Part shown: positions 7,682 to 26,107 of the stretch, in pieces | Layout: each line of letters starts with the position of its first letter | Position numbering within the stretch: the stretch's first letter is position 1 | IMG/VR virus record: IMGVR_UViG_3300029286_001264 | Coordinates: 1 to 27,074 of that record | DNA: 27,074 nucleotides | Source of the DNA: a virus | Reading direction: 5' to 3' (one strand) | The notes under the pieces: generated by a model | Told to the model about the DNA's origin: nothing | Databases searched by the model: none | What the model saw: only the letters and a program-made list of their open reading frames with translations | Program-made: the position numbers and the translations under genes

Positions 7682-8709
7682 AGAAGTACGGCTACGATCA
7701 GAGATCGGGAGCGATGTTCTCCTGGGAGTTTGACTTCCAGTATGAGGGCCGACCCGAGAGCGTTCCGGATCGATCTGGGGTCATCATCTCGGATGACCAA
7801 ATAGAAGATGAGATGGTCGGATGTGCTTTCATGTCAGGATGGACTGGGGACTTCATTCTTCTTCATTCTGACGGCAAGGATCATCACTACTATCTATTCG
7901 GGACGGATCTTCGAGTCGGAATGTGGAAAGGGAAGGAGATTGATACTGGGGATCTCAAGAAGATGACTTCTCGGATGCCGATCTGTATCTGTGGGAAGAT
8001 CGTGCAGTCATCGGAGCAAATGGCAAAGGTGTGTGCTTCGTTCCCCAATTCGAGAATGTATGCTTGTCCTTTGGTGGAGGAACTAGCCGCATTCGGTGCG
8101 TTGGCACGATTTGTTGGGAAACGGCCGTATCGTCCGTATCAGGTGTTATTTTCAGGAGAGAACAATGAGCCTCTGAATGCAGAATTCAGGGAATTTGACC
8201 CTTCTCTGGATGGTGACTCGATGGGGAGAATGGCCGAAATCGTAATGAGCGGTTTGCCCGTCGTAAACGAGATGAAGCGGAATGTCATTGGGGTGTCTTC
8301 ATTCTACGGCAAGACACTGCATAAGGACTGGAAACCAGGATGTCGGATGATTGTCCGGGTTGCGGAGGTAGATAAGTACTTCCCGGAGACTCCCATTTCG
8401 TCCAAGAACTATGTAGCGACTTCGGTTCCTGTTCAGATGGAAGTTTCAGAAACACTCCATTGGGAATCTGGGTATAATGAGAAGTTTTCGGATGTGTTTG
8501 TGGCAACCGACTATATGCCGGGAGTCAGCACCTTCATGCGGTTCTACAAGACATTCTCGGGGCGGGGATTTGTCTTTGTGTCAGATCAGGAAGAAGTGAT
8601 TCATGGGCCTATCGTTCCGGTCTTCCGAAGCGACAAGGCTTATCGAGTTCCAAGGGATAAGTATGAGCAATCTCACGGATTTCTACGAAGCGTCTGCAAC
8701 GCCCCCTGA
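7678..8709 (+). CDS. Unknown protein between the ParB-like gene and dnaE
   Basis: The product is 343 residues and not recognised. ATG 7678 (ATGA overlap) is preferred over the in-frame TTG at 7663. It is acidic to neutral, has no signal peptide or membrane segment, and carries short cysteine stretches (RMPICICGK and MYACP). The C-terminal ~45 bases overlap the dnaE start in another frame, so the two genes are tightly linked. A role near the replisome is suggested only by position. Confidence 0.7.
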   Translation: MKKYGYDQRSGAMFSWEFDFQYEGRPESVPDRSGVIISDDQIEDEMVGCAFMSGWTGDFILLHSDGKDHHYYLFGTDLRVGMWKGKEIDTGDLKKMTSRMPICICGKIVQSSEQMAKVCASFPNSRMYACPLVEELAAFGALARFVGKRPYRPYQVLFSGENNEPLNAEFREFDPSLDGDSMGRMAEIVMSGLPVVNEMKRNVIGVSSFYGKTLHKDWKPGCRMIVRVAEVDKYFPETPISSKNYVATSVPVQMEVSETLHWESGYNEKFSDVFVATDYMPGVSTFMRFYKTFSGRGFVFVSDQEEVIHGPIVPVFRSDKAYRVPRDKYEQSHGFLRSVCNAP

Positions 8710-10300
8710 TGATCGAATTTCATCAGAGAAGAACATTCTATTGGTTGTGCCTGACAAGAAGCACGACATAGGACCTGTTTTGGCGGAATTGGGTTTAGCC
8801 TCATCCGAGGTGGCCCTGACTTGGCCGAAGAAGACGGTGGAAGCATTTGCAGAGATCGCTGTCGCCGACGCCAAGATCGTCATCCAGGTTGATTGTCAGT
8901 TGTCCAGGAAGTACCCTGTAGTCACCAAGGAGACTGGATATTCAGGATTGGCGGCGTTCAGGGATCGGGTCAATGCCGCAGTGGCCGACACTTTCGTTGG
9001 ACTTCATCATCATGACGAATTCAGCATCAAGGATGGCCTGGGTGTCGTTGGGAAGTTTGACCTGAAGACGAAGAAGTGGACGGGATTGATTGGACTCTTG
9101 AAGGCTCAGAGGCGGTCGTTCTGCTCCATCACGAATCACGGCAGTGTGGGTGGGTGGATCAAGCAGTACAACGCCTGCAAGAAGGCGGGCATCAAGGCCA
9201 TCTTCGGAATGGAAGCCTACTTCTCCGATTATCGGGGAGACGATCCCGAGAAGAAGAAGGCTCATCGTTCGGCCAATCACCTCGTTCTGCTTGCCAATAC
9301 GATGGAAGGCTTCTACAACATCATTCGCATTCACAATGATGCACAACTTCATGGCTTCTACTACACGCCCAGGACCAACCGGGAGGCATTGGAGAAGTGG
9401 GGTAAGGGGATCGTCGCATCTTCGGCTTGCATGACGGGAGAGTTGCCCCAGTTGCTCATGGCAGGGAAGGAGGCGGAGGCCAAGGAGGCTTGGGAGTTCT
9501 ATAGTCGGGTATTTGACGCCTTCTATATCGAGATTCAGATCATCGAGCATGATGATCAGAAGGAAGCCAATCGTCGTCTGATTCAGTTTGCACGTTCGGT
9601 GGGAGCGCCTTTGGTCCTCGCTTGTGATAGTCACTATCTGGACCCGGAGTACGCTGAAAGTCACGACATCTTGATGTGTCTGCGCCAGTCAAAGACTCTC
9701 ATGGATAAGCGTGAGAAAGATGACGTGTGGAGTTTCGATGTCCGGAATATGTATTATCGGGATGCGGCTGCTATGCGGCAGGTCTTCGAGAATGGGTTTA
9801 CAGATGAACAGGGGAATCAGCACACACCATTCAAGGACGATGTGTTCACTGAGGAAGTGTTCGTCGAGGCGATGGCCAACACATTGAAGATTTCCAGGGG
9901 TACGGCTGACATCAAACTGGACTCTAAGATCAAGTTGCCCAAACTCTATGAGAATGGAAAGGAAGTTCTGAGGAAGAAGGTCAATGAGGGGTTTGCGGCT
10001 CGTGGGTTCATCAAGAAGGAGAATCGTGGCGAATATCTTGCTCGGATCAAGTCAGAGTTCGAGGCCATAACCAGGATGGGATGGGGTGATTACTTCCTTG
10101 TGATGGAGAGGATCATTTCGGACACCATTGCGAAGTGGGGGGAATGGGCCATAGGATACGGTCGTGGATCGGCTGCCGGATCATTGGTGTCATATTGTCT
10201 TGGATTGACGGAGATTGATCCCATCAAGTATGAACTCTTGTTTGAGAGATTTTTGGACGAGTCAAGATCGGGCGTGAGAGCATGCACGTTTGAGCTATAA
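8663..10300 (+). CDS. dnaE: DNA polymerase III alpha subunit, N-terminal piece of a split gene
   Basis: The product is 545 residues from ATG 8663 (AGGGATAAG before it). An in-frame TTG at 8603 would only add residues without a family match. The first ~110 residues are an unrecognised extra domain. A PHP domain follows: GLHHHDEFSIKDGLG, SITNHGS, IFGMEAYF and LACDSHYL, close to bacterial DnaE. The palm begins with GYGRGSAAGSLVSY (498 onward), which binds the incoming nucleotide, then GLTEIDPIKYELLFERFL. The family's next block, with the catalytic aspartates, is missing. Instead the frame reads eight foreign residues (VRACTFEL) and stops at the AATTCTTTGATATT element. The missing part is on the second piece at 11319. 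The two would have to assemble to make an active polymerase. Confidence 0.9.
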   Translation: MSNLTDFYEASATPPDDRISSEKNILLVVPDKKHDIGPVLAELGLASSEVALTWPKKTVEAFAEIAVADAKIVIQVDCQLSRKYPVVTKETGYSGLAAFRDRVNAAVADTFVGLHHHDEFSIKDGLGVVGKFDLKTKKWTGLIGLLKAQRRSFCSITNHGSVGGWIKQYNACKKAGIKAIFGMEAYFSDYRGDDPEKKKAHRSANHLVLLANTMEGFYNIIRIHNDAQLHGFYYTPRTNREALEKWGKGIVASSACMTGELPQLLMAGKEAEAKEAWEFYSRVFDAFYIEIQIIEHDDQKEANRRLIQFARSVGAPLVLACDSHYLDPEYAESHDILMCLRQSKTLMDKREKDDVWSFDVRNMYYRDAAAMRQVFENGFTDEQGNQHTPFKDDVFTEEVFVEAMANTLKISRGTADIKLDSKIKLPKLYENGKEVLRKKVNEGFAARGFIKKENRGEYLARIKSEFEAITRMGWGDYFLVMERIISDTIAKWGEWAIGYGRGSAAGSLVSYCLGLTEIDPIKYELLFERFLDESRSGVRACTFEL

Positions 10301-10301
10301 C

Positions 10302-10315
10302 AATTCTTTGATATT
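10302..10315 (+). promoter_or_regulatory. AATTCTTTGATATT element, copy 2
   Basis: It is identical to the copies at 4494 and 17040. It starts one base after the stop of the first dnaE piece, and GTAGG follows after 12 bases. It would allow transcription of the endonuclease and the second dnaE piece independently of upstream genes. Confidence 0.55.
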
Positions 10316-10358
10316 CTGTCTATTGATGTAGGATGTTTGACACGGAACTGGGGACAGA

Positions 10359-10598
10359 ATGAAAAAGAGTTGCATTGTGTGTGGAACGGCGATGGAGATT
10401 CCGAAGTGTTTGTCGAAAACGAGGAAGACTTGTTCGAGAAAATGTTCTGGCATTGCAAGGAGCAATCTCACCAGGAGGGTGGTCAGGTGTCGGACTTGTG
10501 GTGTTGAATTTTCAGTGACGAGTGGCAAGCAGAGAGGAAATTTTGCTCCCAAGTGTGTTATCAGAGGTATTGGAAAGGAAGAAGCATGGAGTAGGTGA
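10359..10598 (+). pseudogene. Zinc-finger endonuclease, broken N-terminal part
   Basis: The frame gives 79 residues from ATG 10359 with repeated Cys pairs: CIVCG...TCSRKC and CRTCG. The second finger then loses its expected end. Adding one T to the TTTT run at 10541-10544 restores it, FCSQVCYQRYWKGRSME, which matches the fingers further on (YCSHRCQYQA, YCSRQCYWKSM). That restored frame reaches TAG 10592-10594 and continues in phase into the next reading frame. The two parts therefore look like one gene broken by a one-base deletion and an amber codon. Alternatively they are two proteins coupled by the GTGA at 10595. Confidence 0.6.
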
Positions 10599-11341
10599 AG
10601 TGTCCGATTTGTGGAAATGTTTTTTCAAGGACGGCACACAATAAGGATAAGACTTATTGTTCTCATCGGTGTCAATATCAAGCACAAAGTTTGGGACTGA
10701 TTCGTAGTCATTGTCGAGGGAATTATGGTTATAGGGAAGACCTTGGACAGACGTTTAGGTCATCATTGGAGGCGAACTTTGCGAGAGTGTGTCAAAAAAA
10801 CGGATGGTTGTGGAAGTATGAGCAATCGTGTTTTGAAACTCCGTTGGGATTTTACACGCCAGATTTTTGGGTTGAAGAATGGAAAAGTTTTGTTGAGCTT
10901 CGAGGATTTCGTGGTAGGAGTTTATCAAAACCTATTATGGCATCAAGAAGGCACGGGTTTAATCTGAGGGTGATTTATGAGGACGAGTTTATTCGAGAAT
11001 GGGGTCATCTTCGGAGTAGCATCACAGGATGGGAAGACAACAAAGGCCCTATTTTCGGAATGGTTGATCCTGCCGTATATGAGAATAGAGTGTGCGTATG
11101 TGGTAAGAAATTTCTGCATCGAAAGTCCAGGTCTCGTGGTGGAACTTATTGCTCGATAGCGTGTGCTAATCAGAACAAATGGTCAAAAGCACATGGTTGG
11201 CACAAGAGAATAAAACGGGATGTTGTTTGTGGTTCTTGTGGTTGTTTGTTTGCCACAGTTGTTGGTGGTAAATACTGTTCAAGGCAATGTTACTGGAAAA
11301 GCATGAAGAGGAATGGCAATGTCGTCAACATCGGAAATTGA
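10595..11341 (+). CDS. PD-(D/E)XK/Vsr-like homing endonuclease with zinc fingers, C-terminal part
   Basis: The product is 248 residues from GTG 10595. It opens with a zinc finger (CPICG...YCSHRC). The nuclease core follows: FRSSLEANFARV (E59), WKYEQSCF, YTPDFW (D90) and SFVELRGFR (E101). This is the order E...PDF...E-x-K of PD-(D/E)XK and Vsr-like phage homing enzymes, with Arg where Lys is usual (ELRG). Two more fingers (CVCGKKF...YCSIAC and CGSCG...YCSRQC) close the protein and probably bind DNA. It would cut intact dnaE genes and spread the element. The end overlaps the start of the second dnaE piece in another frame. The broken N-terminus and the Lys to Arg change may mean it is losing activity. 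Confidence 0.7.
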   Translation: MKCPICGNVFSRTAHNKDKTYCSHRCQYQAQSLGLIRSHCRGNYGYREDLGQTFRSSLEANFARVCQKNGWLWKYEQSCFETPLGFYTPDFWVEEWKSFVELRGFRGRSLSKPIMASRRHGFNLRVIYEDEFIREWGHLRSSITGWEDNKGPIFGMVDPAVYENRVCVCGKKFLHRKSRSRGGTYCSIACANQNKWSKAHGWHKRIKRDVVCGSCGCLFATVVGGKYCSRQCYWKSMKRNGNVVNIGN

Positions 11342-13892
11342 AAAAATCTGTCGGGATCGCTTGTATAGTCTAGGTTTATCCTTAGACTCTCATTATATCA
11401 ATCGATTGCAGAAAGAGATGGAGGATTTGGATGCCTGGAATAGGTACAAATCAGAAGATCGTGCTGGTCAGATTCTTGAGAAGATTGGTCGTGACGGTTA
11501 TCCGGTATCAACAAACAAGTCAAACAGTCTAGTTTTATTTCTGACTGGACTTTCATCGGTTGATCCGGTCAAGGAAAAACGAGAATGTGCAACAGATGTA
11601 GTTGTGAGCGGAGATTGCCCGGATATTGACACAGATTTTGATCCCAGGATCAGGGATTGGGTGAAGGCACACATCGTGGAGATTTTCGGGGCTAACAAGG
11701 TGTGTTCTATTGGCACCTATGCGACTTACAAGACTCGTGCTGTCATTCTGGATGTGGCGAGAGCACTCGGAGAGAATACCGCCGAGGCGAATGCGGTGAC
11801 AAAGAGGATTGAACCCCTGCGAGCATTTGAGGATGAGACTGGGGAAGAGCAGAAGGTAGATCAGATGGATTTTGACGACATCTGTGAGCACTATCCAGAA
11901 TTGAAGGCGTATTTTGAGGCTCACCCGGAAGTTCGCAGGCATGCGGAGATTCTGAGGAATCAGGTCAAGAATATGGGGACTCATGCTGGAGGAGTCATCA
12001 TCTCTGACTTGGATCTACAAGATCGAATCCCGGTCTGCCGGGATAAGAACGGTCAGATTGTTTCAACCTGGGGTGAATCCGGAAGCGTGCAGGAGTTGAG
12101 TGCGGTTGGACTGGTGAAGTATGACCTTCTTGGTCTCAACAACCTTCCGATTATCTCAGATTGTGTGAAGTTGATTGAACAGACGACGGGACAGCATATC
12201 GCACGGGCTGATATCCCGATCAGTGACCGAGAAGCAATTTTACTGGGGTCCAAGAAGGATCTGGTTGGAATCTTCCAGTTCGAGAATCCGGTCACGAAGC
12301 CGATTGCGGATAAGGTTGGAATGGAGTCACTGATGGATATCGCCATCGTGACATCTCTAATTCGTCCTGGACCGATGGATGCGATGATCGGGACGGAAAA
12401 GGCACCTTTCGCATTTGCGGCAAGGAAGCATGGCGAGCCTTATGAGGCTCCAGAGTTCATCCGGACGGCTCTCCGGGAAACGTATGGAATTCTGGTCTTC
12501 CAGGAAGATGTGATGCGGCTGTCTCGGGTGCTTTCTGGGTTTACGGCACCCGAAGCCAACAAATTGAGGAAGGCGGCTGGCAAGAAGATCAAGGAACTGA
12601 TGGATTCGATTCGGGAGAGGTTTGTTTCAGGAGCACAGTCTCACATTGATGCTGGGGAAATCACGAAGCAGGAAGTGGAACTGATCTGGGAGCAGATTGA
12701 GACATTCGCAGGGTATGGATTCTGTAAGGCACATGCGGTCACGTATGGAGCGATTACGACGGTTGAATTGTGGCTGAAGCACAACTTCCCGATTCAGTTC
12801 ATAGCGGCTCTCGTCAACAACACGAAGTTGGGGAAGAAGAAGAATGGATCTGACAACATCCTTGCGGATTATCTCAACTATGCCAGAAGGAGAGAGATCC
12901 CGGTTCTGGGTCCGGACATCAATCTGAGTGGAGATGAGTTCAAGGTTGAGGGAAACTCCATCCGCTTTGCCCTGGGACATGTTAAGGGTGTCGCATCGGC
13001 GGCAAAACTCATCGAATCATTCCAGCCATTCACGAGCATGCAGGATTTCTATGATCGGGTGAAGGTTGAACCCAAGGACGAGGTGGAAGAGAAACCAGAG
13101 GTGGAGGCATCGGAGGAACCGGCACCCATCGATGAGGCGGATGAACCGAATGGGACTCCGGAGAGCGACGAGGAGTTCAAGAAACTGGTTGTTGAAGAAA
13201 TCGCCAAGCAAGCGAAGGGGAAAAAGGCTACTGCTCGCAGGCCGAATCGCAAGGTCGTGGAGAGTCTTATTGCGGCTGGAGCGTTCGACAAGTTTGGGAC
13301 TCGGAACGAGATGGCGATGGAGTACTGGCGTCTGCGTCAGAAGAAAAAGAAGTTGCCCGTGAAGGAAACGGTCGTTGAGCCAGTCGTCGAGGAAGAGGAG
13401 TCGACAGAATCGCTTTCTCCAGAGGATGCGGCGGCGGCAGAGGCAGAAGCGAAGAAGGCAAAGAAGAAGAAGGACCTTCCCCCGGATGATCGGACAGATG
13501 AAGAATGGCAGAGGGCAGAGTTTGAAGTGATCGGGATGTGTCTGTCTCGGCAGGTTCTGTTCAAGCAATACGAGGAGACGATTCGCAAGGAGGGATGGTA
13601 TCTCATCAACGAAATCGACCCGACAAAGAAGAAGGTGCTGGTCTTTGGCGAGATTACGTCAATCGATCATCACATTTCCAAGGCGGGAAATTCGATGCAT
13701 ATCGTTACGATGACGGATGGCATCGATTCGATGAAGTTCTTTGTATTCCAGGGTGGATGGGACCTATTCCGGGACAATTACAAGGCGGTGGGGGCTATCG
13801 GGGCGATCCCGTTGGCACGGTTTGATGACGGTGATGGCGGGACTCGGTTCTTCAATGATCGGGGACAGCCAAAGGTTCTCAGAAAAGGGTAA
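11319..13892 (+). CDS. dnaE: DNA polymerase III alpha subunit, C-terminal piece of a split gene
   Basis: The product is 857 residues. ATG 11319 is favoured over ATG 11313 because AAGAGGA ends at 11312, a proper distance only from 11319. Residues 1-98 are a divergent copy of the segment that ends the first piece: SLVLFLTGLSSVDPVK mirrors SLVSYCLGLTEIDPIK, but the GRGS loop and FERFL are lost. Then the true palm resumes: CPDIDTDFD (catalytic D102, D104), the third aspartate at D269 in GLVKYDLLGLN, fingers, HhH (RFALGHVKGVASAAKLIE) and an OB-like part (VFGEITSIDHHISKAGNS). Two charged linkers, Glu/Pro rich (~13070-13190) and Glu/Ala/Lys rich (~13350-13490), are inserted. No tau-binding tail is seen. 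GRGS is supplied only by the first piece, so the pieces look complementary. Confidence 0.88.
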   Translation: MSSTSEIEKICRDRLYSLGLSLDSHYINRLQKEMEDLDAWNRYKSEDRAGQILEKIGRDGYPVSTNKSNSLVLFLTGLSSVDPVKEKRECATDVVVSGDCPDIDTDFDPRIRDWVKAHIVEIFGANKVCSIGTYATYKTRAVILDVARALGENTAEANAVTKRIEPLRAFEDETGEEQKVDQMDFDDICEHYPELKAYFEAHPEVRRHAEILRNQVKNMGTHAGGVIISDLDLQDRIPVCRDKNGQIVSTWGESGSVQELSAVGLVKYDLLGLNNLPIISDCVKLIEQTTGQHIARADIPISDREAILLGSKKDLVGIFQFENPVTKPIADKVGMESLMDIAIVTSLIRPGPMDAMIGTEKAPFAFAARKHGEPYEAPEFIRTALRETYGILVFQEDVMRLSRVLSGFTAPEANKLRKAAGKKIKELMDSIRERFVSGAQSHIDAGEITKQEVELIWEQIETFAGYGFCKAHAVTYGAITTVELWLKHNFPIQFIAALVNNTKLGKKKNGSDNILADYLNYARRREIPVLGPDINLSGDEFKVEGNSIRFALGHVKGVASAAKLIESFQPFTSMQDFYDRVKVEPKDEVEEKPEVEASEEPAPIDEADEPNGTPESDEEFKKLVVEEIAKQAKGKKATARRPNRKVVESLIAAGAFDKFGTRNEMAMEYWRLRQKKKKLPVKETVVEPVVEEEESTESLSPEDAAAAEAEAKKAKKKKDLPPDDRTDEEWQRAEFEVIGMCLSRQVLFKQYEETIRKEGWYLINEIDPTKKKVLVFGEITSIDHHISKAGNSMHIVTMTDGIDSMKFFVFQGGWDLFRDNYKAVGAIGAIPLARFDDGDGGTRFFNDRGQPKVLRKG

Positions 13893-14257: not shown

Positions 14258-14936
14258 TATTCTCGTGAGCCGTTGGCACGAGGCGATCCGGCGATACAGG
14301 GAGAAGATGGACCTGCAACGAGAGTTGTCAGGAGAACTTTCCCCGTATCGTCGGTTGATTGTCGTCACTGGGATGGCCAGAAGTGGAACATCCGTAACGG
14401 CCGCATTTCTCGGCAGTCACCCTGAAGTAAAACTGGTGATTGGGGGAGGATGTTGGCAGGTTTGTGAGACGGACCTGATTCGGATGGAGATGGGTGAACC
14501 AGACTGGCGATCCATCGACGAGTTGCTTCGGGATAACTATCCGAAACGGATATTGCTCAAACAGCCGTGGGTGATGAACAACTGGATGTTCGCACGGGCT
14601 ATTCGCCCTGCCAAGATTGTCGTTTGTCTGAGAGAACGAAGATCTCAGATTGGTGGCTGGCAGAATCGTCGGGATATGGTCTCGGAAAGATGCCAGAAAG
14701 AACCAGATACGGTCTATAATGAGTGTATTTCTCATCTTCCTCGATTGCTTTCAGAAGGGGCGACCTGGGTACATCAGGATCAGATGGATGCAGAGATGGC
14801 GCAACGAGTTGGAAGACATCTTGGGTTGGAACCTGCCGGATTTGATCTGTCGATTCTGGGGCGTAGGTGGAAGGAAGCGATGGAGAAGGATTGGTTGGAC
14901 AAGCACACCATCAGGAAGGAACGGAGAAGGCCATGA
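14229..14936 (+). CDS. Sulfotransferase-like protein
   Basis: The product is 235 residues from ATG 14229. The frame extends upstream, but that stretch overlaps the previous gene and has no family match. LIVVTGMARSGTSVTAAFLGSHPEV (43 onward) is the PAPS-binding P-loop of sulfotransferases (R-S-G-T-S). ILLKQPWVMNNW and KIVVCLRERRSQIGGW fit the second binding region with its arginines. The family transfers sulfate from PAPS to hydroxyls, here probably of a glycan made by the neighbouring genes. The usual catalytic base is not identified. The stop overlaps the next glycosyltransferase as ATGA, which ties it to that pathway. Confidence 0.7.
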   Translation: MEAQVLSRCDILVSRWHEAIRRYREKMDLQRELSGELSPYRRLIVVTGMARSGTSVTAAFLGSHPEVKLVIGGGCWQVCETDLIRMEMGEPDWRSIDELLRDNYPKRILLKQPWVMNNWMFARAIRPAKIVVCLRERRSQIGGWQNRRDMVSERCQKEPDTVYNECISHLPRLLSEGATWVHQDQMDAEMAQRVGRHLGLEPAGFDLSILGRRWKEAMEKDWLDKHTIRKERRRP

Positions 14937-15859
14937 GCGATCCCAGGGTGACAATTGCGGTCTGTTACAAGGCTGGCACGAAGGAGATGTTGAAAATATG
15001 GTTGGCTTCGGTGTTTGCCTACACCAAGTCTGATTTCAAGATCGTCGTTGTAACGGCGGACGATCCGTCTACTTGTGAGGCATTGGAAGTTCTAATACCG
15101 ACTCACAATGTCCGGGATATGGTGAAGGCGGCGAACGAGCCGACATCGGTGACAGAAGTTCGGTTATCAGCAGTCTCACCGGCGAGGATTCACGGGGCGA
15201 TGTTGGACGCCTTTCTAGCATCCAATCCGGTTACTACAGAGTTTCTGCTGACGATGGATTCTGACTGTTTCCCGGTTGCGGACGGCTGGCTGGATGATTT
15301 GGAAGGGATGATGGATAATGGGGCCAGGGTTGCGGGTATCCTCCATCCCTGGTCTCCGCCGCCGGCCGATATGGATCACAAGAAGATCGAATGGCGGGTA
15401 CGATCACAACATTGCTGGGAAACCACTCACGTTGCCTGCCAGATGATCCGTGTAGAGGACTTGAAGGAGTTAGGCGTCACATTTGCAGGGGGTGATGACA
15501 CGGGCCTGTTGATCCCGCTAGAGGCCAGGAAACGAGGATGGAAGGTGGACGGGTACAAGGTGACTCGGTGTGCCAAGCCCAAGGACGGGTCTGACCCGGA
15601 ATTCAATCGCTATGTCTGCCTGATCTTCGGAGATGCGGTGTATCATCATGGTGGATTCACACGGATTGCCACGGGTGGGGATAAGCCATTGATGGCGGAA
15701 GCCTATGGATGGGTTGGGACTGAGTTGACAATGCGCCGGGAAGCGGAATTTCTACTCTCTGACGAGTTCTCATATCGGTTCAAGTTCGACCGGGAAGAAG
15801 CGGTTGCGGCAGAGAAGATGGATCGTTTGTTTGGTGCGAAGACGATGAGCAAGACATGA
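14933..15859 (+). CDS. GT-A fold glycosyltransferase, paralogue 1
   Basis: The product is 308 residues from ATG 14933 (ATGA overlap, GGAGAAGG before it). The N-terminal VTIAVCYKAGTKEML...FKIVVVTADD fits a nucleotide-sugar binding Rossmann-like start. [15 protein letters not shown] (about 106-120) supplies the D-x-D metal motif. RVRSQHCWETTHVACQMIR, the acidic GGDDTG and LIFGDAVYHHGG with a late His pair follow. All of these recur in the gene at 16044, so the two are paralogues from a duplication. The exact sugar is not predictable. The protein is cytoplasmic and probably acts with the sulfotransferase and the nucleotidyltransferase. Confidence 0.75.
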   Translation: MSDPRVTIAVCYKAGTKEMLKIWLASVFAYTKSDFKIVVVTADDPSTCEALEVLIPTHNVRDMVKAANEPTSVTEVRLSAVSPARIHGAMLDAFLASNPVTTEFLLTMDSDCFPVADGWLDDLEGMMDNGARVAGILHPWSPPPADMDHKKIEWRVRSQHCWETTHVACQMIRVEDLKELGVTFAGGDDTGLLIPLEARKRGWKVDGYKVTRCAKPKDGSDPEFNRYVCLIFGDAVYHHGGFTRIATGGDKPLMAEAYGWVGTELTMRREAEFLLSDEFSYRFKFDREEAVAAEKMDRLFGAKTMSKT

Positions 15860-16050
15860 TGACTAGAACAGAGGTTTTCAAGGAGTGGATCAAGAAGGCT
15901 CCAACATCCCTGTTAATGGTTCATCTGGAGGCGATACGAGAAGGGTGGTATCCAAACCTATCTCGGAGACGACTGCTTGAATCTGTGCTTTGGAGTCGTG
16001 TCCCAACAGGATGTATCCTGGTTTGGAATGAGAAGAGGGTCAGATGGTAA
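15856..16050 (+). CDS. Small unknown protein between two glycosyltransferases
   Basis: The product is 64 residues, starting in an ATGATG overlap with the preceding stop. The end overlaps the next ATG (ATGGTAA). The sequence is basic and Trp-rich (EVFKEWIKKAP, AIREGWYPNL), with no known motif. The tight overlaps on both sides argue that it is a real gene and not chance. Confidence 0.6.
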   Translation: MMTRTEVFKEWIKKAPTSLLMVHLEAIREGWYPNLSRRRLLESVLWSRVPTGCILVWNEKRVRW

Positions 16051-16958
16051 CGATTCACATGGTCTTTGTATCTGGTGCGGAGAATATGTTACGGGTGGCT
16101 TTGCGGTCGCTGGTTCGTCATGATCCTGGGATTCCATATCATCTTCGTATCATTACGGACGTGAAGGACGAATTGGCAACGAGGTACGTTGAGGATTGGG
16201 AGGATGGGAATGAGGTGGTCTGTCTTGATGTTGGGACACCCAAGACGGGGAGCGGACAGCACGGGATGTTGCTGGATCGGGCAATGGAACTGGTGGATAC
16301 CGAGTTCTTCCTGACTCTGGACTCGGATTGTTTCCCGGTGGCTGATGGCTGGTTGAAGGCGTTGATTGACATGCAGGCGGACGATGTAGCGGCTTCCGGG
16401 ATTCTGTGGCCGTGGATTCCGGCTCCTGAAACAGTCGAGAAGAACACCCTGGAGTGGCGGATTCGGAATCATCACTGCTGGAACAACACGCAGCCAGCCT
16501 GTCAACTCATTCGTACGAGCCTGATGCGTGATCGGGGTTGGAAATTTGCAGATATGGATGGTGATGACACCAATCATGGGTTCTGTCTCAAGGCGCACGA
16601 AGCCGGGATGAGGATGGTGGGATGGAAGCCAACCAGGGGGCCTTTGCCGGATGACGACTTCGATCCGGAGGTGAATCGTCACGAGTCTTTGATTTTTGGG
16701 GATATGATGTATCATCATGTCGGTGCTTCGAGGGAAAGCCGGGGACTGAACGTTGGTCAGGTTGCGTATTTCTCTAAAGCCAGGCGACGGGTGTACAATG
16801 AGAACGGAGCCGAGTGGATGTTGAATCCTGGAAACTCCCATGTCTTCAGGTTTGACCAGGAGGAGCGTGTGGCTCAGGTCAAGATGGATATGTTGTATCG
16901 TACGGCCAGGGTGTTTTTGGAAACTCATGGAAGCCTATTCTGTAAGAATTGGGCATAG
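16044..16958 (+). CDS. GT-A fold glycosyltransferase, paralogue 2
   Basis: The product is 304 residues from ATG 16044 (AGAAGAGG before it). It shares with the gene at 14933 the blocks [15 protein letters not shown] (D-x-D near residue 92), [21 protein letters not shown], the GDDTNHGF acidic block (GGDDTG in the paralogue) and [12 protein letters not shown]. The N-terminal parts differ more, which suggests a different donor or acceptor. It is followed after eight bases by the abandoned 5' end of the nucleotidyltransferase gene, so originally these two genes were direct neighbours in one operon. Confidence 0.75.
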
Positions 16959-16966
16959 GAGGTCAT

Positions 16967-17041
16967 ATGAAGGGCGTGATTCTGGCGGGTGGGAATGGGA
17001 CTCGATTGTTGCCGCTGACCAAGGCAGTCAATAAGCAATAA
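16967..17041 (+). pseudogene. Abandoned original 5' end of the sugar nucleotidyltransferase gene
   Basis: From ATG 16967, behind an intact ribosome binding site (TAGGAGG), 24 codons read [20 protein letters not shown] then VNKQ and stop at TAA 17039. The protein matches the first 23 residues of the complete gene at 17888 almost exactly (N to Q and K to R changes only), but third codon positions differ widely. Identity at DNA level is complete again over the last 11 bases, GTCAATAAGCA (17027-17037), where the element was inserted. The short peptide may still be translated but cannot be active. Confidence 0.88.
17027..17037 (+). repeat. 11-base direct repeat flanking the LAGLIDADG element, left copy
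   Basis: GTCAATAAGCA is repeated exactly at 17948-17958. The longer imperfect repeat is 16967-17037 against 17888-17958 (71 bases, differences almost all synonymous). Confidence 0.85.
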
Positions 17042-17053
17042 TTCTTTGATATT
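17040..17053 (+). promoter_or_regulatory. AATTCTTTGATATT element, copy 3
   Basis: It begins two bases inside the inserted element, and GTAGG follows ten bases later. It is identical to copies 1 and 2. It would drive the endonuclease gene and, through it, the repaired nucleotidyltransferase. Confidence 0.55.
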
Positions 17054-17078
17054 TCTCCTAGAGGTAGGAGGGATCGTT

Positions 17079-17891
17079 ATGAACAAAGAAAATATTTATG
17101 ACCTGTATCACAACAGGGGGATGTCGCAGTCGGAGATTGCCGTTCAAATGGGCATTTCTCAAGGGATGATTTCCTATTGGATGAGGAAACTGGGAATTGA
17201 GAGGAAAGATCGGACTTGGAAGATCGCCGGATCGAGGGTCAAATATGCGTTTGATGATTCTAGGACGCAGAGAATGGATGAAGATTTGGCCTGGGTTCTT
17301 GGATGGGTAGTGGGGGATGGGAATGTCAGGACTGAGGGGTTGGAGATTCTTTTATCCGAGAGGGATGCAGATGTTCTTCACAAAGTGAGGGAGGTATTCG
17401 GATTTGGAGGACCGATCAAGAGTGGAGTTGTATTTCTAAAGAAGACTGGGAAGTGGTATCGGAGGGCGTCCTTGAGTATTCGGAGAAAAAGTCTGGCAAA
17501 CTGGCTCATTGAGATCGGTGTTCATCCGAGAAAGAGTCAGAGGGAAACTTACCCGTCTATTCTTGAGGGTTGCCCGAATGTTATTCATCGTGCGTTCATC
17601 AGAGGACTTTTCGAGGCAGATGGGACGATCACACGGTATTCCACGGGTCAAATGGTGTTTCAGATAGTTGGGACTAAGGAGTTGATGCGAAGGGTTCAGT
17701 CTCGATTGATTGGACTTCTTGGACTTGGTAGGACCAAACTTTACAGACAGAAGCGTAGTCGGAATCATTTTATGTTGAGGTATGTTGGGAATAAGCAGGT
17801 GCCTCGCATTATGGAGTTGTTGTATGCGGACGGAGGGTATCGGATGAACAGGAAGTATGACACATATCAATCACTAAGGAGGGCAGCGTGA
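17079..17891 (+). CDS. LAGLIDADG homing endonuclease with N-terminal helix-turn-helix
   Basis: The product is 270 residues. ATG 17079 has GGTAGGAGGG before it; an in-frame TTG at 17046 lies inside the element and is unlikely. Residues 15-40 (MSQSEIAVQMGISQGMISYW) form a resolvase-like helix-turn-helix. The two LAGLIDADG helices are LAWVLGWVVGDGN (D80) and FIRGLFEADGTI (D181), each ending in the metal-binding acid, so this should be a single-chain enzyme. Both acids are present, so it could be active. Its likely target is the start of the nucleotidyltransferase gene around GTCAATAAGCA. The stop overlaps the start of that gene as GTGA, so the enzyme and the repaired target are translated together. 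Confidence 0.88.
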   Translation: MNKENIYDLYHNRGMSQSEIAVQMGISQGMISYWMRKLGIERKDRTWKIAGSRVKYAFDDSRTQRMDEDLAWVLGWVVGDGNVRTEGLEILLSERDADVLHKVREVFGFGGPIKSGVVFLKKTGKWYRRASLSIRRKSLANWLIEIGVHPRKSQRETYPSILEGCPNVIHRAFIRGLFEADGTITRYSTGQMVFQIVGTKELMRRVQSRLIGLLGLGRTKLYRQKRSRNHFMLRYVGNKQVPRIMELLYADGGYRMNRKYDTYQSLRRAA

Positions 17892-18646
17892 AAGGAGTTA
17901 TCTTAGCCGGGGGACAAGGAACTCGATTACTTCCTCTTACTCGTGCTGTCAATAAGCATTTACTACCGGTGGGTGGAAAGCCGATGCTTCAGCACTGCGT
18001 CGAGAAGATGGTTGATGCACGATTGGAAGACATTCTGGTGGTCACAGGAGGTGAGCATCTCGGTGGTATAGCGGAGTTTCTTGGGAGTGGGAAGGACTTT
18101 GGGTGTCGGGTCACATATCGAGTGCAGGAGGCGGCGGGAGGGATTGCCCAGGCACTTGCTTTGGCGGAAGGGTTTGTCAGTCATGGTGAGCCGATGTGCG
18201 TCCTTCTGGGGGACAATATCTTCGAGTCAAGCATGAGTCCGTTGGTCGAGGAGTATGCATTGCAGGGTTTCTGCGGTGCTATGGTTGTATTAAAGGATGT
18301 CAATGATCCTCAACGGTTCGGCGTGGCAACTACTGATGTTGACACAACAAGTGTTCCTCGGAGGATGAGGATCACGAAGATCGAGGAGAAGCCGAAGAAC
18401 CCGGAGAGCAACCATGCTGTGACCGGCATCTACTTCTATGATCACAGGGTCTTCCAGATTATTCGGAAGTGCAAACCAAGTCGGCGGGGCGAATTGGAGA
18501 TCACGGATGTCAATAACTGCTACGTGAAATCAAGACTGCTGAGTTTCGTCCATCTGGATGGCTGGTGGACGGACGCAGGCACGCACGAGAGTTATCAGAT
18601 GGCGAATCAACTGGTGATGGGAGTATCTGCGCCACCTCACGGTTGA
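17888..18646 (+). CDS. Sugar-1-phosphate nucleotidyltransferase (RmlA type)
   Basis: The product is 252 residues from GTG 17888. [16 protein letters not shown] (4-18) is the nucleotide-binding signature, followed by NKHLLPVGGKPMLQH, GGIAQALALAEGF and VLLGDNIFE (acid for the metal). RITKIEEKPKNP and TGIYFYD complete the RmlA-like set. It makes an activated sugar, most likely dTDP-glucose from glucose-1-phosphate, for the glycosyltransferases around it. It is shorter than typical RmlA (about 290), lacking part of the C-terminal end. The first 71 bases belong to the inserted element and use A/T-ending codons; the rest resembles its neighbours. The fused protein looks complete. Confidence 0.85.
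   Translation: MKGVILAGGQGTRLLPLTRAVNKHLLPVGGKPMLQHCVEKMVDARLEDILVVTGGEHLGGIAEFLGSGKDFGCRVTYRVQEAAGGIAQALALAEGFVSHGEPMCVLLGDNIFESSMSPLVEEYALQGFCGAMVVLKDVNDPQRFGVATTDVDTTSVPRRMRITKIEEKPKNPESNHAVTGIYFYDHRVFQIIRKCKPSRRGELEITDVNNCYVKSRLLSFVHLDGWWTDAGTHESYQMANQLVMGVSAPPHG
17948..17958 (+). repeat. 11-base direct repeat flanking the LAGLIDADG element, right copy
   Basis: The exact copy of GTCAATAAGCA lies within the recoded 5' end of the working nucleotidyltransferase gene. The original gene sequence presumably continues right after it. Confidence 0.85.
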
Positions 18647-23412: not shown

Positions 23413-23640
23413 ATGAAGACGAATCGTAGCGATCAGTTTGGCCGAAATGAGGTAGAGGCCAGGAAGTTGTTTGGCTCGGAACACGAGCGCAGTACGATCC
23501 TGCTGAAAGAGGGGGTTTGGATCGCCAGGAGCGGGTATAAACCGACTGTCGCTGATGCCAAGATGTATCTTTTTGGAGGCAGAGGGGGTATAGGCGTGTC
23601 TCGGCTACAGATCGTGACGATCAAGGAGGTGGTAAAATGA
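23413..23640 (+). CDS. Unknown small protein
   Basis: The product is 75 residues. ATG 23413 lies six bases after the -10 box; ATG 23407 touches the box and is less likely to be transcribed. It reads MKTNRSDQFGRNEVEARKLF and continues with alternating short strands (TILLKEGVWIARSG, LQIVTIKEVV). No family is recognised. No ribosome binding site is available, so it would be a leaderless message. The stop overlaps the start of the first secreted coiled-coil protein as ATGA. Confidence 0.58.
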   Translation: MKTNRSDQFGRNEVEARKLFGSEHERSTILLKEGVWIARSGYKPTVADAKMYLFGGRGGIGVSRLQIVTIKEVVK

Positions 23641-24704
23641 AGGCGATGAGGTGGATGATCGGGTTGATGGTGATGGTGACGCAGGTCGTAGGGGCGGCAT
23701 CTCTCGGAGAACTGAAGACCGCATACAGCAATGCTGTTGCCAAGATCTCTGCCGACAACCAGAAGATTAAGGACGACGCCTTGACACAGTATGGCAAGAA
23801 TCTCGGGATCGTCCTGGCGTCGCTCAAGCAGAAGGGCGATATCGACGGCTACACGGTCGTCGACCAGGAGTTGAAGCGATTCCAGGCGGAGAAGGAGGCT
23901 CTGACAAACACTTTCGTGTCAGTGATTGCCAATGTTGTCTCTGCGTACCAGAAGCAGATGGCCGCCGTCGAATCCGACTCGTCCCGTCGAACGGTTGATC
24001 TGCTGAAGCGGTACGTTCAGGCGCTGGACGGATTGGTGAAGAGTCTGATGGCACAAGATCGAACCGCTGACGCCAAGGCGGCTGGAAACGAGAGGAAGGC
24101 TGCTGAGTTCCTGTTGGCGGAGATTGAGACGGGATTGCCGAAAGCGGAAGTGAAACAGGCAGCACTCCCCAGGCTGACGATTGTCAAGGCGACCTTTGGG
24201 ACGCCTGAGAATGGTCTGGACTTCACGGAAAAAGTGAGGCTGATGGTCCGCAACAACCGATTGGAGATACCAGCGAGTCTCAACAAAATCTTTGGCGATG
24301 TGGCTCCGTACAAGGCAAAGGTGTTCAAGATGGATTACACGGATGGCATCAGCACAAATATCGTTCACAAGGAAGGTTCGGAGAAAGAGCCTGTTGTTGT
24401 CGAGATTACGGGGGCAATGAATGGGTCGGACACGCAGGCGAACCCCAAGGGACATCAGAAAGGCACACTCACGATTGTCAAGGCGACCTTTGGTGTACCG
24501 GGGAAGATGCGTGATGTGACGGATCGGGTCAAGGAACTGGCTGGACCGGACACGTTGGACCTTCCGGACGATAATGTGGTCTTGGGATATGACCCGGTGC
24601 CGAATCAGCGCAAGACGCTCACGATAGAATACACCGTGGGGGCCGGCCTTCTGAAGCGTCTCAAGAAGTCATTCATGGATGGGGAGCGGGTTGTTGTTCC
24701 GTGA
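23637..24704 (+). CDS. Secreted coiled-coil protein with two repeated beta domains, PVC type
   Basis: The product is 355 residues from ATG 23637 with AAGGAGG before it. A Sec signal peptide opens it (MKAMRWMIGLMVMVTQVVGA). Then a long coiled coil runs to about 170: LKTAYSNAVAKISADNQK, KQKGDIDGYTVVDQELKRFQ. Two copies of a small domain follow, each starting LTIVKATFG (from about 181 and 277) and ending in a K-x-x-x-x-x-Y strand. I associate this coil and the ATFG/DVT domain with cell-envelope proteins of Planctomycetes and Verrucomicrobia, so it may be host-derived. A role in altering the infected cell's envelope or blocking other phages is possible but not shown. It is paralogous to the gene at 24890. 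Confidence 0.7.
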   Translation: MKAMRWMIGLMVMVTQVVGAASLGELKTAYSNAVAKISADNQKIKDDALTQYGKNLGIVLASLKQKGDIDGYTVVDQELKRFQAEKEALTNTFVSVIANVVSAYQKQMAAVESDSSRRTVDLLKRYVQALDGLVKSLMAQDRTADAKAAGNERKAAEFLLAEIETGLPKAEVKQAALPRLTIVKATFGTPENGLDFTEKVRLMVRNNRLEIPASLNKIFGDVAPYKAKVFKMDYTDGISTNIVHKEGSEKEPVVVEITGAMNGSDTQANPKGHQKGTLTIVKATFGVPGKMRDVTDRVKELAGPDTLDLPDDNVVLGYDPVPNQRKTLTIEYTVGAGLLKRLKKSFMDGERVVVP

Positions 24705-24713
24705 GGCAAACCG

Positions 24714-24887
24714 GTGAACATCGCATTACACAACGTCAAGGGAGATGAGTGCTACATCGCTTCGCTCAAGATGGCGGCGAATGCGGACGGCTACATTGTT
24801 CTTCGCAAGCGGGTGAAGGCGGGACTGTCTGGGGCAACGAGGTGTGCCGCCATTCTCAAGACGACGTTAACCACCGTGGGGGCATAG
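24714..24887 (+). CDS. 57-residue truncated paralogue of the gene at 26145
   Basis: GTG 24714 opens a frame to TAG 24885-24887. The first ~33 residues (MNIALHNVKGDECYIASLKM then ANADGYIVLRKR) match the start of the 183-residue protein at 26145, DNA included, then the match is lost. It sits nine bases after the first coiled-coil gene and two bases before the second. It is best read as the remnant of a duplicated gene cut short, possibly still translated. Confidence 0.6.
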   Translation: MNIALHNVKGDECYIASLKMAANADGYIVLRKRVKAGLSGATRCAAILKTTLTTVGA

Positions 24888-24889
24888 CA

Positions 24890-26107
24890 GTGAATCCGAT
24901 CTCAACGTCAAGAACCACCGTGCTGACCATCATTGCCTGCCTTGCCCTCGCCTCGATGGCGATTGGGCAGACCACACCAGTCGCTCCCCTGGAATCCCTG
25001 AAGACCGCATACAGCAATGCCGTAGCCAAGATCGCCGCTGACACCCGCAGGCAGAGGGACGACGCACAAATTCAGTACGCCAAGAATCTCATAGCCGTTC
25101 AGGCGGCGCACAAGCAGAAGGGCGACATCGACGGCTACACGGTCGTCGACCACGAGTTGAAGCGGTTCCAGACTGACAAGACTGTGTTGACCAACAACCC
25201 CGGCATACTCATTTCCGATGCCGTCGATGCGTATCAGAAGCAGGTGGCAGCGGTTGAGACGGAGGCAGCACGACGGAATGCTGATCTCTTGAAGCGGTAT
25301 GTCGCTGCTCTCGGCAACCTGGTGAAGGACCTGATGGCGAGGGACAAGATGGCCGAGGCAAAGGCTGTCGGAGACGAGAAGAAGGCAACGGAGTTCATTC
25401 TGGCCGAATTGGAGACTGGGTTGCCGGAAGTGAAGGCTAATCTCGAAGTGAGGGTTGTCGATCCCGTGAAGCCAGATGAAGTGAAGTCGGTTGTCGGGAA
25501 GTGGCATCTTTACAGGCCCGATGGAACTCCAGATGTTGGGGTAGGAACTGATGCGGAGGTTTACAGAGACGGCCGGTTTGTGGTGGTGGGATTGGACGAT
25601 TGGAGCGGTTTTTACAGCTTTACAGATATGGAGAGGACGAAGATCAGGAGAACGTGCAAGAACGGTCAAACGAGGATAGGAACCTACGATAAGGTGACGG
25701 ACACGATCACATGGACGGATGGGTATACTTATCGGCGGGCCACGGAGTCGAGTTCCTCCAAAGCGCCACCACCGGCAGGCGTGACTCCGCTGTCAGCCAG
25801 TGGTTCGTTTGCCGACGTTGTGGGCAAGTGGAAGGTCAGTTACGACAACGGGTTCAGCCGCACGATCCAGATTGACAAGAAGGGGCATGTCACCGTGCTG
25901 GAGGCATCGTGGCCCTGTGTGGGGATCATGTTCGACACGGTGTGGGACAAGGCAGCGAAGAAGTATGTGGCGAAGGCGGCCGATCTGGGGATGGCAGAGA
26001 CCTATCGTGTTGTCGAGGAGAAGATGTCGGTTGAACGCTGGTCGGCGGCACAGTATCCGAAGGGTGCGCCAGCGAATCTCGGAACGGGCGTCAGGGTGAC
26101 AGATTGA
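24890..26107 (+). CDS. Secreted coiled-coil protein, paralogue 2, with two C-terminal beta domains
   Basis: The product is 405 residues from GTG 24890. Upstream in-frame codons lie in the overlapping 24714 gene and lack a signal, so the start is placed just before the signal peptide (TVLTIIACLALASMAIG). The coiled coil is closely related to that of the gene at 23637, with LKTAYSNAVAKIAADTRR and QKGDIDGYTVVDHELKRFQ. The C-terminal half is different: two domains each starting VVGKW (about 200 and 312) with Trp/Gly-rich beta strands, linked by a Ser/Pro stretch. The product is expected outside the cytoplasmic membrane. The shared front and different rear point to domain swapping after duplication. 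Confidence 0.7.
   Translation: MNPISTSRTTVLTIIACLALASMAIGQTTPVAPLESLKTAYSNAVAKIAADTRRQRDDAQIQYAKNLIAVQAAHKQKGDIDGYTVVDHELKRFQTDKTVLTNNPGILISDAVDAYQKQVAAVETEAARRNADLLKRYVAALGNLVKDLMARDKMAEAKAVGDEKKATEFILAELETGLPEVKANLEVRVVDPVKPDEVKSVVGKWHLYRPDGTPDVGVGTDAEVYRDGRFVVVGLDDWSGFYSFTDMERTKIRRTCKNGQTRIGTYDKVTDTITWTDGYTYRRATESSSSKAPPPAGVTPLSASGSFADVVGKWKVSYDNGFSRTIQIDKKGHVTVLEASWPCVGIMFDTVWDKAAKKYVAKAADLGMAETYRVVEEKMSVERWSAAQYPKGAPANLGTGVRVTD

Follow-up and report, generated by a model that had tools for sequence, protein, structure and literature searches.

The nucleotidyltransferase gene in this phage DNA, a sugar-nucleotide gene of the RmlA type, has two starts, separated by a gene for a LAGLIDADG homing endonuclease. 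The best overall explanation, and a probable one, is a homing element that brings along a substitute 5′ end for the gene it enters. A homing element in a coding sequence is normally tolerated through an intron, an intein or a split enzyme. Here, in a phage, it appears to be a substituted gene start that rescues the gene. The window referred to below is the whole stretch of DNA that was analysed, 27,074 nucleotides in length.

In the proposed mechanism, the LAGLIDADG enzyme would cut an unoccupied nucleotidyltransferase gene around codon 24, and an occupied copy would then serve as the template for repair, with the native stub as guide on the left and the remainder of the gene on the right. About 921 bp would be inserted. 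They would comprise the stop codon of the stub, the gene for the endonuclease and a foreign start that is complete and preceded by a ribosome-binding site of its own. The catalytic GGxGTRLxPLT nucleotide-binding loop would be retained, with the element as its supplier. Since the element supplies both the loop and a full start, neither RNA nor protein splicing would be needed. The replaced copy would encode the same protein from changed DNA near the target, a change that probably keeps the enzyme from cleaving the DNA that carries it. An earlier note on this DNA had proposed that the gene survives without an intron or intein, and this is borne out by the complete second start, the bases at the junctions and the stop codon of the stub.

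An element of this kind is a natural setting in which to test whether immunity to a nuclease can reside in silent sites. It also points to endonucleases as makers of hybrid genes in phages and provides a signature (stub, endonuclease, recoded start) with which genomes can be surveyed.

Organization of the occupied locus

The earlier note had described an original start of 24 codons that halts at the insertion, followed by the LAGLIDADG gene and a second start of the same gene, with both starts finishing in the same sequence. This order was confirmed, positions included, and the shared ending is an exact 11-bp direct repeat (Table 1). The stub is preceded by a good ribosome-binding site and closed by a TAA at 17039-17041; this stop codon and the last base of the preceding Gln codon are element DNA. 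Only 37 bases separate the stub from the endonuclease gene and none separate the latter from the second start, whose GTG at 17888 overlaps the endonuclease stop (17891). The 252-aa product of the reconstituted gene is a nucleotidyltransferase (PF00483, E 4e-57 in Pfam).

Table 1. Features of the nucleotidyltransferase locus in the window.
Feature	Position	Strand	Remarks
Native 5′ stub of the nucleotidyltransferase gene	16967..17041	+	ATG 16967, 24 codons + TAA
Left copy of 11-bp direct repeat GTCAATAAGCA	17027..17037	+	Insertion point directly after
Conserved left element end ATAATTCTTTGATATT	17038..17053	+	Source of the stub's stop codon
LAGLIDADG homing endonuclease gene	17079..17891	+	270 aa; ATG 17079; own ribosome-binding site
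Replacement nucleotidyltransferase start, recoded, probably element-borne	17888..17958	+	GTG, codons 1 to 24 in part
Conserved right element end CTTCCTCTTACTCGTGCTGTCAA	17930..17952	+	23 bases identical in L001; six successive T-ending codons
Right copy of 11-bp direct repeat GTCAATAAGCA	17948..17958	+	Exact match to left copy
Reconstituted nucleotidyltransferase gene, RmlA type	17888..18646	+	252 aa; host sequence from 17959 on

The endonuclease matches PHROG 4645 ("endonuclease") over residues 2-266 (E 2e-34) and Pfam LAGLIDADG_3 over residues 170-245 (E 1e-8). It has an N-terminal helix-turn-helix and two LAGLIDADG-type motifs, LAWVLGWVVGDG, which was assigned by eye, and FIRGLFEADG. The protein is thus predicted to have the fold with two acidic-residue motifs expected of the LAGLIDADG family, although the predicted structure is of low confidence (pLDDT 49). 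Its known relatives are found near phage DNA polymerase and recombinase genes; some are annotated as intron-encoded and some lie in interrupted genes.

A second occupied site is present in L001, a 21.5 kb viral contig that has the same three parts at the same codon: a stub ending in LTKAVNKQ and a stop, an endonuclease and a second start. The two endonucleases are 66% identical in amino acid sequence over their full length, and the motifs with their acidic residues (approximately 70-81 and 173-182) are invariant except for one residue. The two phages are syntenic but old relatives, with flanking proteins 33-58% identical. The identical layout in an independent contig rules out both chance and misassembly of a single contig as the source of the arrangement. 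These two loci, both on metagenome contigs of uncultured phages and belonging to one synteny group, are the occupied sites known. In both, the junction repeat is 11 bp long, and its single variable base is T in both copies in the window and C in both copies in L001. This agreement within each locus, although it is that of one base, suggests that the repeat is derived from the host gene.

The earlier note had called for a survey of genomes for duplicated, diverged gene starts beside endonuclease genes. L001 provided such a case. In the loci of ten other relatives of the endonuclease no flanking gene-end duplication beat all shuffles, the nearest being L020 (2/100). End duplication is therefore not a common trait of this endonuclease family. 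Scans of viral sequences with the endonuclease, the conserved segment and DNA and peptide patterns at both ends yielded only L001 as a further occupied site, and a search of GTDB genomes yielded distant relatives only.

Elsewhere in the window, dnaE, encoding DNA polymerase III alpha, is split (8603-13892). Its first part ends near FERFLDESRSG at 10300, and its second part picks up at DCPDIDTDF after about 100 extra residues. Inside the split lie two zinc-finger endonuclease-like ORFs (10359-10598 and 10595-11341), of which the second matches PHROG 1271 (HNH endonuclease). Taken alone, the extra stretch that opens the C-terminal half had no Pfam match, and its similarity to the upstream part was borderline (1-4/100 shuffles), so that dnaE was not counted as a second gene-start case. 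The dnaE of a related 133 kb record, L002, has no interruption at the corresponding point, and that of the L001 phage (L008, 3082-11317) has intein-like inserts at several sites, one of them with a LAGLIDADG endonuclease. Upstream of the nucleotidyltransferase are two tandem, related glycosyltransferase-like genes (14867-15859 and 16044-16958, the second without a Pfam match) that belong to a sugar gene cluster, the order of which is partly conserved in L001 and L002. Two adjoining genes at 23637-26107 have similar N-terminal regions, SLGELKTAYSNAVAKISADN and PLESLKTAYSNAVAKIAADT, an apparent tandem duplication.

Empty sites and the ancestry of the two starts

Empty sites, which the earlier note had wanted for comparison, were found in several relatives. 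L002 has the same gene order, with dnaE upstream, and a single uninterrupted nucleotidyltransferase gene; L003-L006 likewise have one uninterrupted gene each. The element endonuclease is absent from this site in all of these records (L002-L006); L002 has a distant relative of it (26%) at another position. In seven whole records searched, one full nucleotidyltransferase gene was found apiece, and the 24-residue stub was present solely in the window and L001. Two independent full genes around the site, a finding by which the earlier note would have been refuted, are thereby ruled out for these seven records. No nearly identical empty allele of either occupied locus was found.

The second start encodes nearly the same protein with different third positions, as the earlier note had it: over codons 2-23, 20 of 22 residues are identical between the stub and the second start, but only 5 of those 20 codons. 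The peptides score 106 against each other, compared with a shuffle maximum of 53. At the DNA level, 46 of 68 bases are identical between the two starts in the window and 45 of 68 in L001. Matches across loci reveal a different grouping. L002 matches the window stub at 50 of the 68 bases and the window second start at 40, while the second starts agree with each other at 56 and the two stubs at 51. The stub is thus closer to the gene of L002 and the second starts are closest to each other, which makes the stub the native start and the second start the element's own, foreign to the locus and travelling with the endonuclease, as judged from these 68 bases of sequence. The proposal that the second start is a brought-in replacement was upheld by this grouping of the second starts with each other and of the stubs with native genes.

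Codon use in the second start is atypical for the window, with a codon adaptation of 0.48 versus 0.77 for the stub and a third-position GC content of 0.23 versus 0.68. However, the five identical codons compare with 6.7 expected from codon usage, which is the level of unrelated lineages, and so do not by themselves prove directed recoding. Directed recoding across the whole start is unsupported: apart from codons 15-20, codons agree about as often as by chance. The first two codons for leucine past the junction, TTA and CTA at codons 25-26 (17960-17965), are those that the window uses least for this residue (3% and 6%), and recoding may extend a few bases beyond the junction in the window, though not in L001.

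Conserved ends, age and competing explanations

In the 1.77-kb alignment of the window locus with that of L001, no identical blocks are longer than the two ends of the element: 23 bases on the right (17930-17952) and 21 bases on the left (17033-17053), the latter consisting of ATAATTCTTTGATATT together with AAGCA. The right block contains the codons CTT CCT CTT ACT CGT GCT in both loci. Between the two second starts, codons 15-20 are identical at 6/6 (P ~2e-4 under codon usage), whereas codons 2-14 agree only at the level of chance. A 23-base identical run has a P of ~2.6e-4 within nine given codons and of 0.035 anywhere in 400 codons; the probability of drawing those six T-ending codons at random from the usage of the window is 2e-5, in a test framed post hoc. 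Chance agreement in codons 2-14 beside identical ends indicates that the DNA, and not the protein alone, is constrained at the ends.

The simplest reading of the conserved right end would be protection from the element's own enzyme. Protection by recoding has logic on its side, since the reading frame of the target is restored in the replaced copy. Unlike an intron, such an element would have silent recoding as the only simple way round self-cleavage. However, the 11 bp to the left of the junction are unchanged in the second start, so that protection requires the enzyme to read further left, and any 22-bp site with the junction at its centre would lack protection. For the enzyme to cut the empty site but not the occupied one, its target would have to cross the junction and extend more than 11 bp leftward, into the recoded part. 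The conserved left end may be an operator or a binding site, and its conservation is not explained by the replacement-gene model alone. A dedicated class of phage elements, with fixed DNA ends, an endonuclease and a start, with the T wobbles of the six codons as immunity and with the enzyme or its helix-turn-helix binding the left end, is a tentative idea, and rather less probable than not.

Silent sites between the window and L001 are near saturation (pS 0.86 in the endonuclease and 0.83 in the gene body). Between the stubs there are about 13.5 silent and 3.5 replacement changes (pS 0.77, pN 0.07). A stub that had been dead since the two phages split would be scrambled; it follows that either the insertions came later than the split or the stub is functional. 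The favoured reading of these two loci suggests insertions younger than the phage split, via homing from diverged donors, which in turn suggests mobility. An unlikely alternative is a single old recombination, by which a free-standing endonuclease gene upstream of another phage's nucleotidyltransferase was joined in once and has since been inherited vertically as an immobile unit. This would fit the occurrence of both occupied loci in syntenic phages and in the same gene, as well as the like divergence of endonuclease and nucleotidyltransferase (dN 0.27 and 0.26). Yet the stubs would then be expected to match the decay at silent sites (pS 0.77-0.86), when in fact their reading frames stay open as far as the last codon and nearly all their differences are synonymous. 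That the stub of 24-30 codons is instead a selected, working peptide gene in a stable operon, with no insertion scar, is very improbable: the ribosome-binding site in the window and the low pN between loci would agree with it, but the stub terminates exactly at the junction, at a stop supplied by the element, and amounts merely to the nucleotide-binding loop of a 250-aa enzyme.

Least probable of all is that the stub is joined to the gene body by splicing or ribosomal bypassing, with the second start being secondary. The stub does join in frame to codon 24 (CA plus T), and some relatives of the endonuclease lie in interrupted genes or are annotated as intron-encoded. However, an intron would not fit: only 37 bases precede the endonuclease gene and none follow it, its stop overlapping the second start. 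A group I intron is ruled out by the junction bases at all 12 offsets in the 11-bp repeat: at each offset, the base preceding the insert is the same as the end base of the insert, or the pair is A versus T, so that the required U and G ends are impossible. The locus had no Rfam match, which is weak evidence, since six other loci, including those of interrupted or intron-annotated relatives, had none either. An intein is ruled out because the stub closes with a stop codon (TAA, 17039) and the endonuclease has its own ATG and stop.

Comparison with known homing systems

The replacement element that we favour has its closest counterparts in fungal mitochondria. The mobile ORFs (mORFs) of atp6 in Allomyces macrogynus and of atp6, atp9, cox2 and nad3 in Glomus sp. 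consist of a LAGLIDADG or GIY-YIG endonuclease gene inserted together with a foreign C-terminal gene end, while the native end remains (PMC3630166). The copies of atp6 are 63.5% identical in nucleotide and 91% in amino acid sequence, with mostly silent divergence (PMC3630166). This description upholds the citation of Allomyces atp6 in the earlier note as a precedent for a duplicated gene end. The window locus resembles the mORFs as there described in having an endonuclease within a gene, a duplicated and diverged end with a native remnant, empty sites in relatives, a replacement end of foreign ancestry, and strong nucleotide divergence with little change in protein. The mORFs replace the 3′ (C-terminal) end of mitochondrial genes by a foreign end that becomes fused to the host gene, whereas in the window it is the 5′ end of a phage gene that is replaced, by an element that comes with a start codon and a ribosome-binding site. 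Conserved DNA ends are a feature of the window and L001 that the mORF passages in PMC3630166 do not describe. Similarly, endonuclease insertion with duplicated or displaced gene ends is known from atp6 and cox2 of Phlebia radiata and rps3 of Ophiostoma, where the displaced ends are C-termini, thus 3′ ends, and again mitochondrial (PMC4019555).

Among phages, mobE in nrdA of Aeh1 and mobA in gene 39/60 of T4 are likewise endonuclease genes within a coding region without an intron, but there the host gene is divided in two and both of its polypeptides are required (PMC2988022), with no duplicated gene end. T4 gene 60 may have been protected via a 50-nt bypassed insert (PMC5009743) and not by recoding. 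SegF and SegG are free-standing phage endonucleases that act in intronless homing, with co-conversion of flanking donor DNA (PMC2988022). Like the window endonuclease, they are encoded near their target gene; unlike it, they have no native stub and are not inserted inside the target reading frame. In the open-access literature searched, neither a replaced 5′ end nor an example from a phage was found. The window element thus works like the mORFs of fungal mitochondria, as a 5′-end, phage version of them.
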